NCBI RefSeq assembly: GCF_900103175.1 | Contig: NZ_FNLF01000002.1 | Location: forward strand, 2,990,136-3,054,135 | DNA: 64,000 nucleotides | DNA from: Tsukamurella pulmonis | GTDB lineage: Bacteria; Actinomycetota; Actinomycetes; Mycobacteriales; Mycobacteriaceae | Reading direction: 5' to 3' | Position numbers and translations under genes: made by a program | Shown: in pieces, positions 30,273 through 37,761 of the stretch | Layout: each line of letters starts with the position of its first letter | How positions within the stretch are numbered: the stretch's first letter is position 1 | Notes under the pieces: generated by a model | The model's database searches: none | What the model saw: only the letters and a program-made list of their open reading frames with translations | What the model was told of the DNA's origin: nothing

Positions 30273-31537
<1,265 letters not shown>

Positions 31538-33343
31538 TTGGGAAAAATTCGCGTCCATGAGCTAGCGAAAGAGCTAGGAACCACATCGAAGCAAATTCTA
31601 GTGCGCTTACGCCAGCAAGGAGAGTTCGTCCGTAGCGCATCGTCCGCAGTCGAAGCTCCGGCTGCCAGGCGCGTCCGCGAGTCATTTGGGATCAAGATCA
31701 CGCCATCCGCGATTCAGTACGACCCTCCAGACAATTCCGATAGGGAATCGACTACCACTCTCACCTTTGACCCGAGTACACCCTCCGCGCGCCAATATGG
31801 TTGGCGCGCAGGCGCAGTTGCGCAACCTCAACACCCAGATCTTCTCGCAAACATTGATCGCGTCCGCAGGAAATACCCCGTACTCGGGGAGCATGTCGAA
31901 GCGCTCCGTAGGCTGGGCTCCCAGGTAGTCTACGCCGGATTTTGCCGCCAAGAAGGCTTCAACAGCGCAGCGGTCGTTCACGTTCGATTTAGCGGCGCCA
32001 TCGAGGCCGGGTTTGGCTTCACACGCGAAGTAATGATCTTCTACAGCCCCCACGACGACCTTCAAGGCAGAACATTCAAGGCCGCCGTACGCGAGCTGCA
32101 AGAAACCTACCGGTCGGTCACCCCTGACACATTTTTCCTGTGGTCACCCGATCCGCGATTACGCACCAAACTCTACGACTGGTCGCGGCCTTCCAATCTT
32201 GCAATCCCGCTGCTGATCGACGAGGACGACGATCTTTCACTGATTACAATTCTGAGGGACCACATATATGCTCGGGACCTCTTCTATGTCACCACCCCCG
32301 TGTCTGGCGCCAGCTTCTTCGGCAGAAGAACGCTCCTACAATCCATGCGAGACGACGTGTTCAAACAACGAGTCACAGGGATATTCGGGCTCCGCAAGTC
32401 AGGCAAAACCAGCATCTTAACTCAACTTAGCGAAGAACTAAAATTTGACAATGTCGTTACTATTCTAATGGATCTAGAAGCTTTCCCTTCACCTCCGATC
32501 GATCCAACTGACGACATCCTATCGGAGTTGCGGCGCCGACTTATCGAAGAGCTGACAGCCCGAGGACTACGAGCAGTGGAACTTCAGAAACTGAATCCTC
32601 AACCTTCAATCCTTGAGCTTAAAAACGCATTACAGACTCTTCTGAAACGACTGCATGCAAACGACACTCGGATTCTGCTACTACTCGATGAAATCGAGTA
32701 CCTAACGCCAGCTGACAAAATCGATATCGCCGAGGGCGATATGCCACGCATCGCCCAAATGCTGTCGGCGTTTCGGAGCATAGTCCAAGAATCCGACAAT
32801 TTCACCTTCACAATTTCGGGATTGACAAGCGCGATCGTCGAGGGTGGTCGTTTATACGGAAGGCCAAATCCACTATTCTCTTGGGCACGAGCCGTATACG
32901 TTACCCCTCTTGACCGAGACGAGGCCGACGACCTAGCAAGTACAGTCGGCGGCAAGATGGGCATCGAAATCACTTCAGGCGCTTTGGAAGCGCTACACGA
33001 GGCCTCTGGCGGCCACGCATTTCTCTACCGAAGTCTAAGCTCCGCCGTCGTCGGTCATCTTCCTGCCGACGACTTTAAGAGAACAATGTCTCGGTCGGCC
33101 GTTCTCAGGGAGATCAACGACTGGAAAAGCCGGATACAAGGCAACGTCGATGAGATGGTTCAGCACGTTAAGCGATATTATCCCAACGAGTCCGTTATGC
33201 TGGAGATCTTGATGGAAAGCGCTGACGATTTTAGAGAATTGGCGCCCTCTGAACACGTCGCCGTCAGGCGCCTAAAGGACCTAGGCCTAATAGTTGAAGT
33301 TGACGGCCAATTTGAGGCGAGTGTCATTCTGGAACTCACATGA
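31538..33343 (+). CDS. P-loop ATPase with an IF-2 N-terminal-like domain
   Basis: The 601-residue protein opens [13 protein letters not shown], continues with [10 protein letters not shown] and [14 protein letters not shown], and over ~54 residues closely resembles the N-terminal domain of actinobacterial initiation factor IF-2. A ~45-residue linker and an unrecognised α/β domain (~99-235) follow. Then comes an AAA/STAND-like ATPase: Walker [10 protein letters not shown] (284-292), Walker [12 protein letters not shown] (D384, E385) and a sensor-like FTISGL. The C-terminus (~520-601) looks like a winged helix. I chose TTG 31538 because GGAGG lies nine bases upstream and the domain begins exactly there; ATG 31493 is in frame but unsupported. 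The next gene overlaps by ATGA. A conflict or defence role is inferred. Confidence 0.88.
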
Positions 33344-34440
33344 GCGCAACGGACTATTCTCAGTGGGTAGGAGAAATACACGCAAAAGTCAAGATATTTC
33401 GTCTCGTCTTCCTTCAGATAGGTGCGAGCAACGAGCCTGCACGCCGCGCCCTTCTCGGGTCCAACTCCAAATTGTTAACCATACAGAGTTATTTGGAAGG
33501 TGGAGCAGGAATCGATTGTGGGACACTGATTCTCGATCAATTTGAGTCCCTTACGGGGAGGAATGAGTCAGCCCATATGGGCCAACTAAGAGAGAAACTT
33601 TTCCTAGACCTCAAAGCTAACATTGGAGTGATCCTCCTATCCCGCGCTCCACGCGTCGCCTTCCCTGCTGTCGTCGGAAGCTCACTACTCGATGACGCAA
33701 GTTTCGCACGTGCGCCTGCTCAGAGATTTAATGGCGTCGACGAGTGGCCGACTTGCTCTGAGGATGGCCTAGGCCCCGAAGAAGTGCTGCACAGATCATT
33801 GGTAGAACTGGGTCCAGAAGTATGCGCTTCCTTGGACCGCGTTGTCTACGAGGCACAGCTTACTGACCAAGAAGCGCTTAACCTCCTGAGCGCCAGAGAA
33901 CTAGAGGCCCTAGACGGAGCTGGCCTGACCTCGCCAGAATCTGGTGCTCGACTTTGGAATATCCCCTGGCACCTCTCTCCACTCAAGATGGCACTTGACA
34001 CCACGATAGCGAGTACAACTGACGCTCAACATCGCCTTGCCAATATTAGTGATGCAATGTGGAAGATCGAACGGTTAATTCGCCGCGAGGTTCGGAGAAT
34101 GGCGGTCGATTCATGGCCCAGAAACTGGAGAACACAGTGTTTGAACGAGGATCTCAAGAGAAAGGTTCTTGAGCGGGCAACCGAGTCTGCGTATATCGCA
34201 GCAACCACAATCAAACAAGTGCGCGATCCATTGGAGTGGCTATCGCTCGGAGAGCTTCTTCAGCTGACTGAAAACCCGAAGATCGGGCGTCTCGGCCTCG
34301 AGCCGCCGCAGTGGCGACAATTTCGCGATCAAGTCATGCCAATCCGGAACCGCCTCGCTCACATGCGTACTCTTCATCCAGAGGACGAAGCAAATGCAGT
34401 CAAGTGGCGACGAGTCCTCGAGGCGAGACTGCCGAATTAG
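33340..34440 (+). CDS. HEPN-domain protein, predicted ribonuclease effector
   Basis: A 366-residue protein, translationally coupled (ATGA) to the ATPase. The C-terminal ~120 residues form a helical bundle ending in [15 protein letters not shown], with the RNxxxH motif (R336, H341) of HEPN ribonucleases and a Swt1-like layout. The N-terminal half is unrecognised. It has a Walker-B-like strand ([11 protein letters not shown]) and a sensor-like strand ([11 protein letters not shown]) but no Walker A, so it may be a degenerate P-loop module able to pair with the neighbouring ATPase. RNA cleavage is inferred from the motif; the target is unknown. Confidence 0.8.
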
Positions 34441-34590
34441 ATAAATACCCGTTGTCGCAGGCGAACCATTCAGGACAAGATTCGTCCATTCTAACACGAC
34501 GAGCATGCTCTGGAACCGCCAATAGTCCTAGTGAGCGAATCCCTCAAATACCGTCCAGGCCCGCTCCTAGACTGTCCCGACTGCTTGTTC

Positions 34591-35865
34591 TTACAGCCAC
34601 TCAGGTCGATACTCGTTCCATCCTGGCCTAGGAGGTACCGACAAAGCTCCAAGATTTCCCAACCAGCGCGGCCCGAAGTACCTGTTTAACAATCGAAGTA
34701 GACGGTCGCCTTCGACGAAGGAAACTCGATCATCCTTCTCAGCAAACTCCCTAAACCCACGTGTGCATCTACCCGTTGTCACTAGCACACCACCACTGGC
34801 TTTCTCACTCGACACCACACCAAGTAGCGCTCGCGCGTGGCTAACCCCAACCTTTACTTTGCGATAACGCTTACATTCGATCACGAACCGAGACCGCTCT
34901 CCGGAATTGGCGCGATACACAATGAGATCACGACCGCCGTCAGGACCATCCGGCGTAATGTAGACACCCCACCCCATGGCGAGAAATAGTCGTGCAGTTA
35001 AATACTCGAATTCCCGTGGCGACAACCTATTCAGCACATCGCGCCAAGTTTCGTCCTCTCGGTAGATGTAATACGAATTGATCACGCTCATCGCGTCCGA
35101 CAACCCATCTAGTCGCCCTTGTGGCAACGTTGTTGCGTGCGCACGCTGGTATGCGTTGATCACCGTTATCGCAGCCGATGGAGACTGGTCGACAAGATCG
35201 AGCACCCACCTAACGCCAGGATGGGCAGCGCAATCCGTCAATTTTGAGTTCGCCAGACGACCTAGATATTCAGACGACGGGCCTAGTGAAGCGCCGACAA
35301 CATCTTCCAACTCGGTTGCGTCATCGAATACGAACGTTTGATTCTCAAAGAGAAGTTCGCGCAGCAGCCCGCGAACTTCTTCCGGCGGTTTTTGATGCAC
35401 AGTCGAAAGGTACTCATCCAACAATCGCAATGTCGGGAAGGACCAAGACTGCACCAAGGCGGTCTCATCAACAAGATTGGAGTTTCCCTTTGCCAACACA
35501 GAGGCAGTCCATTCGATCAACCTACCATCCCAGTAGTGCCCCACCTTCGGCCGTCGATTCGTTGTCAATTGACTGACCAATTCCTGCGACGGTGGACGAA
35601 CGCGTCTATTGGCGAACGAATTCAGCGCACGACGAATAGGCCATTCATGCGACGGCGTCGGACGGTCGTTCTCGAAAAAGATCTGATATGACTCGTCTTC
35701 GCCGCAGTCCGAACATATGTACTGGTCTTCTGTCTCTACCCCGCGAACGTGCGAGAGCGCCGGAGGCGATATCGAATCAAGCAGACATCTCGGACATGTC
35801 CAACTTCGATACGCACTACTTCGATCGATCGCATCCGAGAACTCTTTCACGCGCGGATCGGACAC
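34591..35865 (-). CDS. Mrr-type restriction endonuclease with zinc ribbon
   Basis: The 424-residue protein carries near its N-terminus two CxxC pairs (CPRC, CSDC), a zinc ribbon, then a long helical middle of unknown role. The C-terminal Mrr domain starts LSPREFEYLTARLF and has the PD-(D/E)xK residues in GGRD (D313) and IECK (E330, K332). Mrr proteins act as modification-dependent or stress-activated DNA nucleases. The start is uncertain: GTG 35865 or GTG 35850, both lacking a clear ribosome site. GTG 35865 lies five bases after the aroG stop on the same strand, so expression from the aroG transcript is likely. Convergent with the HEPN gene across 150 bp. Confidence 0.85.
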   Translation of the reverse strand: MSDPRVKEFSDAIDRSSAYRSWTCPRCLLDSISPPALSHVRGVETEDQYICSDCGEDESYQIFFENDRPTPSHEWPIRRALNSFANRRVRPPSQELVSQLTTNRRPKVGHYWDGRLIEWTASVLAKGNSNLVDETALVQSWSFPTLRLLDEYLSTVHQKPPEEVRGLLRELLFENQTFVFDDATELEDVVGASLGPSSEYLGRLANSKLTDCAAHPGVRWVLDLVDQSPSAAITVINAYQRAHATTLPQGRLDGLSDAMSVINSYYIYREDETWRDVLNRLSPREFEYLTARLFLAMGWGVYITPDGPDGGRDLIVYRANSGERSRFVIECKRYRKVKVGVSHARALLGVVSSEKASGGVLVTTGRCTRGFREFAEKDDRVSFVEGDRLLRLLNRYFGPRWLGNLGALSVPPRPGWNEYRPEWL

Positions 35866-35870
35866 TATAG

Positions 35871-37761
<1,891 letters not shown>

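Follow-up and report, generated by a model that had tools for sequence, protein, structure and literature searches.

A mobile ATPase–effector gene pair of Actinomycetes that carries a host-matched IF2 N-terminal domain and probably serves in defence

A small island at the end of aroG

What lies at this locus? The 64,000-nucleotide stretch of the Tsukamurella pulmonis genome analysed here (the window) contains a 4.5-kb island with a G+C content of approximately 49–58% (in 600-base windows), compared with approximately 72% outside it. The island carries three genes between two direct repeats, as follows.

31246..31326, unstranded: left direct repeat of 81 bp, a copy of the aroG 3′ end, 95% identical to 35873-35953
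31327..35872, unstranded: island with gene 1, gene 2 and an Mrr-type nuclease; low G+C; empty site in seven congeners
31524..31529, plus strand: Shine-Dalgarno sequence GGAGGT, 8 nt 5′ of the TTG start, read from the sequence
31538..33343, plus strand: gene 1, an open frame of 601 aa with IF2_N, a conserved unassigned region and an AAA/STAND-like ATPase
31544..31693, plus strand: IF2_N domain, residues 3-52 (PF04760, E 9.3e-12)
31835..32287, plus strand: region without a Pfam match, residues ~100-250, conserved in 13 loci
32387..32413, plus strand: Walker A, GLRKSGKTS, residues 284-292 (GLRKxGKTS in 13/13 loci)
32678..32698, plus strand: Walker B, LLLDEIE, residues 381-387 (DEIE in 13/13 loci)
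33340..34440, plus strand: gene 2, 366 aa, likely effector, overlapping gene 1 by 4 nt
34069..34083, plus strand: Ex3R motif of gene 2, E244-R248 (Ex3[KR] in 12/12)
34345..34362, plus strand: Rx4H motif of gene 2, RNRLAH, residues 336-341 (RNRx[AS]H in 10/12)
34591..35823, minus strand: Mrr-type restriction endonuclease, start codon uncertain (Mrr_cat E 1.6e-27; mREase_IV E 3.6e-16)
35873..35953, unstranded: right direct repeat, the 3′ end of the intact aroG (35871-37274, minus strand)

The gene at 35871-37274 is, judged by its protein, presumably aroG, encoding a class II DAHP synthase. Sixteen genomes of the genus yielded the aroG end; besides the window's own, 14 of these gave a locus with most of aroG, and one (L119) gave only a weak partial match. 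In seven of the 14 (L105, L106, L107, L109, L111, L112 and L115), a single aroG end directly adjoins the left neighbour gene, that is, the site is empty; in the other seven, the left gene had no match and the site was not judged. No integrase was seen among the larger frames of the island, and promoter-like and terminator-like sites within it showed no clear excess over shuffled sequences. Around the related locus L013, no direct repeats were found.

The Walker motifs of gene 1 that the original prediction had pointed out are present, and the AAA_22 match (residues 277-429, E 1.7e-7) lies above the Pfam cut-off, as does that of IF2_N (45 bits against 25.3). The nSTAND1 profile scored 20.3 bits in the window, 27.9 in L013 and 27.6 in L014, with a cut-off of 27.1. 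STAND NTPases carry a GxP motif after the NTPase core; at this point gene 1 reads GGHAFLYR, that is, GHA and not GHP, and the far relative L080 reads GGHP. The TTG start, named earlier as a possible error, is well supported, because GGAGGT precedes it and the domain-bearing relatives begin near the same residue (with ATG, GTG or TTG), which rules out a wrong start; no GGAGGT-like sequence lies upstream of the in-frame ATG at 31493.

Origin and spread of the IF2_N domain

Where did this domain come from? The original prediction held that the first ~54 residues of gene 1 resemble IF-2 and were captured from the infB gene of the host. Their identity as a true IF2_N domain is borne out: the alignment with host InfB shows 76.6% identity over 47 aligned residues, and in 20,000 letter shuffles of the domain the identity averaged 9% and reached at most 28%, so that, with the Pfam E value of 9.3e-12, a chance helical likeness can be rejected. 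A search of solved structures with the domain returned IF-2 chains. The host genome contains four IF2_N matches, namely gene 1, two within a 953-aa frame (InfB) and one within a 1047-aa frame that we take to be RNase E, and the NCBIfam model of mycobacterial RNase E also matches the IF2_N domain of gene 1. In longer alignments, gene 1 is 50% identical to InfB (residues 2-97) and 35% identical to the RNase E-like frame (3-105), which makes RNase E the less likely source and points to an actinobacterial InfB. The claim of capture thus stands, as judged from the sequence, as far as the kind of source is concerned, but not as a capture made in this genome: a recent origin from the host's own infB is rejected by a DNA identity of 65% and by the presence of the fusion in other orders. 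Because relatives from those orders carry the domain in register with gene 1, and given the same 65%, the capture would be old.

The ATPase family comprises 13 loci, all in Actinomycetes: the window, L013 and L014 from 101 related genomes, and ten from a pattern scan of the genomes of 84,980 species, a kind of scan that misses diverged members. A search for the same fusion, which the original prediction had proposed, found it in ten of the 13 loci, the window included; IF2_N lies above the Pfam cut-off in nine and below it in L013, where it is eroded (20.9 bits), and it is absent in L014, L047 and L050. The ATPase can therefore do without the domain. Among 394 genomes of the class, a close member occurs in two (the window's own and G303, by position the L043 genome) and a far relative in three. 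No match to the ATPase was found in 50,697 phage records at E 1e-5, none of 16 pattern matches in viral contigs was confirmed, and 17 plasmid records match it, all at 22–27% identity and 44–67% coverage. Three far relatives end in other domains: a Schlafen AlbA_2 domain in L079:1363-3501 (E 4.7e-10), a protein kinase domain in L080:1330-3513 (E 1.3e-24) and, by reading of the sequence only, a protein kinase domain in L081:583-3003. These proteins may represent variable effector parts on one switch.

A tree of the 47 aligned columns is poorly resolved and mixes ATPase copies of IF2_N with InfB copies. A single origin of the ten ATPase copies is not rejected (AU p 0.16), a single clade of all 20 fusion copies is rejected (p 0.02), and the L045 copy is placed with its own InfB (88/92).

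We noted that the copies tend to resemble the InfB of their own host, and we compared the two in the eight ATPase loci in which IF2_N lies above the cut-off and host InfB was in hand; L041, for which no InfB was found, was left out, and L013 entered a wider test only. Mean identity to the own-host InfB was 69.7%, against 60.2% over all assignments, and only 2 of 40,320 assignments, including the true one, were as good. With any one of the eight copies left out, p was at most 4e-4, and with one Microbacteriaceae host at a time (half of the eight hosts belong to this family), the true assignment was the single best of 120. The own InfB ranked first for four of the eight copies and second for the other four. 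The wider test covered 14 fusions of several kinds, omitting L041, L034 (of the same genus as L035) and four plasmid proteins without a host genome; it gave 64.7% against 57.5%, with none of 200,000 random assignments as good, and own-InfB ranks that included fifth for L046, seventh for L043 and twelfth for L035. In the wider panel, the window's copy is closest to the InfB of G157 (79%), its own InfB being 77% identical. With ATPase-body distance held fixed, a partial Mantel test gave r 0.57 (p 0.008); for the ATPase body against the host, r was 0.28 (p 0.12). A control that compared the internal with the N-terminal IF2_N of InfB in seven of ten hosts, three hosts with an insertion having been dropped, gave p 0.55 and is weak, the pair being only 16% identical. 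The test was conceived after the sequences had been seen.

One such copy is that of L045, whose IF2_N is 83% identical to that of its own host InfB over 47 residues and shares with it RVHEV, GQF and KGPSSSIEPPVARR, a set that the other InfB sequences compared do not show all together. Nothing was copied recently, because the DNA identity of the ATPase copies to their own infB is only 56–67% in the eight own-host pairs. Six of 15 InfB-invariant positions (R1, V2, H3, E4, A6 and L20) are nevertheless kept in all nine ATPase copies, which indicates that IF2_N is under constraint; S13 and K14 never vary among 17 InfB sequences, yet only three and five of the nine ATPase copies, respectively, retain them. 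This bears on whether the domain is a mere passenger, acquired through recombination, perhaps repeatedly, and of little effect. Its erosion in L013, its absence from three of the 13 loci and the mixing of ATPase and InfB copies in the tree would agree with such an account, but the six positions kept at so low a DNA identity argue against it, and we regard it as very improbable.

Is the ATPase the only mobile protein with this domain? The original prediction held that neither such an ATPase nor a mobile island normally bears it; an ATPase in a mobile island indeed does so here, but genome and plasmid searches showed that IF2_N recurs in unrelated proteins of other mobile elements. In L038:4794-5579 (minus strand), a Swt1-type HEPN domain is fused directly to IF2_N (E 5.1e-15 and 1.1e-8), and the gene sits in a prophage-like region between neighbours that we take, from their translations, to be terminase-like and tail-like genes. 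This fusion is our best hint that HEPN and IF2_N work together. In L092:7876-8616 (plus strand), IF2_N accompanies MerR-type helix-turn-helix domains; the surrounding region contains an Abi_2 gene and an apparent type I restriction operon, as we read it. Further IF2_N proteins were seen in L091 (243 aa), L032 (233 aa) and two species of one genus (L034 and L035, approximately 290 aa). On Mycolicibacterium plasmids, three others (L086:3989-5809, L089:4001-5227 and L090:3698-5008) have long C-terminal parts that match no Pfam family; the IF2_N of L089 is 94% identical to InfB of the window's genome over 47 residues, L086 lies near an annotated Pycsar effector, and L090 adjoins a type I restriction enzyme. 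Two other plasmid hits, H18 and H24, were rejected as fusions, both being infB genes.

This variety could mean that IF2_N serves as a general nucleic-acid-binding module: as a small permuted winged helix, it would deliver nucleases and regulators to RNA or DNA independently of any IF2 partner. The IF2 N-terminal domain has been placed among the permuted winged-helix folds of RNA-linked proteins (in the part of PMC2848206 drawn on here), and the occurrence of the domain on the RNase E-like frame and beside the MerR-type domains of L092 is in keeping with this idea. It leaves the host-matching unexplained, however, and seems to us quite improbable.

The second gene and its defence context

Gene 2, which the original prediction did not mention, bears the likely effector of the operon. 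It adjoins gene 1 in all 12 loci able to show the pair (L044 stops at a contig edge), with an overlap of 1–4 nt in 11 of them; in L045 (Herbiconiux daphne), the frame opens approximately 130 nt later, the usual first part of gene 2 is absent from it (L045:7861-8030), and the gene may be broken or misassembled. HEPN RNases are marked by an Rx4-6H motif with a polar residue after the R and by an upstream Ex3[KR] (features taken from part of PMC3710099). Gene 2 of the window has both, with N after R in RNRLAH and an acidic Ex3[KR] upstream. The PADLOC profile PDC-M34B covers its residues 228-349 and matches six of the eight HEPN-type gene-2 proteins scanned (E 6.1e-5 in the window, 2.7e-6 in L047, 5.9e-4 in L013, 1.3e-3 in L041, 3.2e-3 in L050 and 0.017 in L043), with no match for L046 and L014. 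Pfam HEPN_Swt1 gave weak matches in two of ten gene-2 proteins (E 0.059 and 0.071) and none in eight, and an hhalign comparison with ten Swt1-type HEPNs gave 64% for the C-terminal part (over 28 columns) and 1.7% for the N-terminal part, which served as a control. Mostly because of the motifs, we consider the C-terminal part a likely HEPN domain. In their motifs, the gene-2 proteins resemble HEPN RNases of the Swt1/Abi2 type; they differ in that the profile matches are weak and the N-terminal 225 residues have no recognised fold. Similarly, PDC-M34B lies over the HEPN-like part, as in the PADLOC candidate system PDC-M34, but gene 1 matches none of the M34 partner models in PADLOC (E up to 1).

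Gene 2 has exchanged its end in two relatives, L045 and L048: it has lost the Rx4H motif and gained an additional C-terminal part, the two added parts being 70% identical. That of L048, the one of the two covered by the PADLOC scan, matches LmuA (415-651 of 655, E 1.4e-51) of the Lamassu system, in which an SMC-like LmuB goes with an LmuA effector. Because the putative active site was lost together with the gain of a defence-associated part, we interpret this change as an exchange of effectors. The added part reads GGGRAD...TEVK, a PD-(D/E)XK-like pattern; no profile confirmed a nuclease fold, LmuA being the only match, and the solved structures offered nothing useful for gene 2 or for this part. 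LmuA has its enzymatic domains at the N-terminus, and its C-terminal domains may dock partners (PMC10586767, in part), so the added part could be a docking part. The LmuA-like part is absent from the window, where gene 2 matches no LmuA, and gene 1 of the window and of L043 matches none of the Lmu models (no LmuB or LmuC).

Ten neighbour proteins, hand-picked from six of the 13 loci, were scanned with PADLOC; five matched at E 1e-5 or better and the other five did not. L041 has an Avs1b-like protein and a RecD/PDC-type helicase, L045 has Avs2 (E 3.4e-151) and a PDC-S32 protein with AbiJ_NTD4, and L048 has PDC-S39; the L041 helicase speaks for mobility and not for defence, because it is a TrwC relaxase by Pfam. 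L049 has a MobA-type relaxase, and in the window the Mrr-type nuclease counts as a further defence-like neighbour. By this association with defence genes, the locus is probably an anti-phage defence operon. With the STAND NTPases and Avs proteins, gene 1 shares an AAA/STAND-like P-loop module that starts with FFGR, variable effector parts and defence-island neighbours, but here the effector lies in a second gene, the N-terminus carries IF2_N, and nSTAND1 remains below the cut-off in the window. The one Avs model to match gene 1 of the window was NCBIfam Avs5, at E 0.068 and with 11 bits where the cut-off is 1000, and the PADLOC matches of gene 1 were weak (PDC-S01, E 8.4e-5; mad8, E 1.2e-4). 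We also considered that the two genes might form a regulatory or maintenance pair of the toxin-antitoxin kind, which would ride on a mobile element and act on host translation without a part in phage defence. Two overlapping genes in a small island of scattered occurrence would fit such a pair; on the other side stand the defence-like neighbours and the exchange of effector parts, nor is gene 2 small, and nothing resembling an antitoxin gene was observed in the island, so that this explanation appears highly improbable.

How the host-matched domain might act

Why should an immune ATPase resemble the translation factor of its host? The likeness of the copies in relatives to their own host's IF2 suggests that the gene-expression machinery of the host is what the system targets, or what it uses as bait. 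We favour the first of these and propose, with a probability of roughly 45%, that the locus is a mobile two-gene, abortive-type anti-phage operon in which IF2_N is a host-derived, host-matched targeting module that docks on a partner of IF2. Gene 1 would be the sensor and switch, as a STAND/AAA-like ATPase, and gene 2 a HEPN-type RNase released when the ATPase fires. Through IF2_N, the complex would attach to one of the partners of cellular IF2, the likeliest being the initiating ribosome or NusA together with RNA polymerase; from there it would watch coupled transcription and translation and cut RNA once infection disturbs the coupling. We infer such docking of a HEPN effector from the literature on IF2 (PMC12297416, PMC3334882, PMC2848206). 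In Escherichia coli, the N1 domain of IF2 binds NusA; the evidence is a pull-down, crosslinking at three positions and a model from AlphaFold 3 (PMC12297416). The authors of that paper add that the N-terminus of IF2 and the C-terminus of NusA both lack conservation and that further species have to be studied. Against our proposal we count this lack of conservation in the two termini, the three of 13 loci without IF2_N, the weak HEPN profiles, the frequent loss of S13 and K14, and the post hoc nature of the host-matching test.

Host-matching is equally compatible with bait. IF2_N could be an integrated decoy, such that a phage protein that binds, modifies or cleaves the N-terminus of host IF2 would hit the copy and so trigger the ATPase and its effector. 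A bait needs precisely this resemblance to the host, as in L045 with the features that it shares with its own InfB (83% over 47 residues), and IF2 is a factor in the replication of phage Mu: its isoforms differ in replication restart, and it binds the Mu ends (PMC3334882, in part). Nevertheless, the HEPN-IF2_N fusion of L038 lacks the ATPase sensor part and suits targeting better than bait, and the absence of IF2_N from three of the 13 loci also tells against a decoy. Because IF2_N occurs on the RNase E-like frame and directly on a HEPN domain, we rate docking above the decoy, which we consider rather unlikely.

Plant NLR receptors carry integrated domains as bait. The present case resembles them in that an immune NTPase bears a copied host domain and that this copy is similar to the host's version; no pathogen factor is known here, and the likeness would be one of logic only. 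With gene 1 and InfB, what is shared is the sequence of the IF2 N1 domain (77% over 47 residues), and gene 1 lacks all other parts of InfB. Plant immune receptors are known to have integrated host domains that follow the host; to our knowledge, it would be new to find this in bacteria with a core translation factor. In the open-licence literature, judged by titles, the beginnings of abstracts and a few passages, we found neither such a case nor a paper on an IF2_N fusion of this kind; IF2 is absent from PMC8195603 and appears once in PMC7159879, in the reference list only.

Taken together, the locus is a rare, mobile and probably defensive ATPase–effector pair with a host-matched IF2_N domain. 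The pair itself varies a known kind; what is new is that mobile proteins recurrently use a domain of a host translation factor. It is conceivable, though doubtful, that mobile elements of actinomycetes repeatedly acquired the N-terminal domain of IF2 as an integrated domain matched to the host, either recaptured or selected to track host InfB. If so, immune ATPases and RNases would wear a copy of host IF2 to sense or reach transcription-translation coupling, a bacterial counterpart of the integrated domains of plant NLRs. This raises a testable question: which partner does the IF2 N-terminal domain meet in Actinomycetes, on InfB, on the RNase E-like protein and on these mobile proteins?
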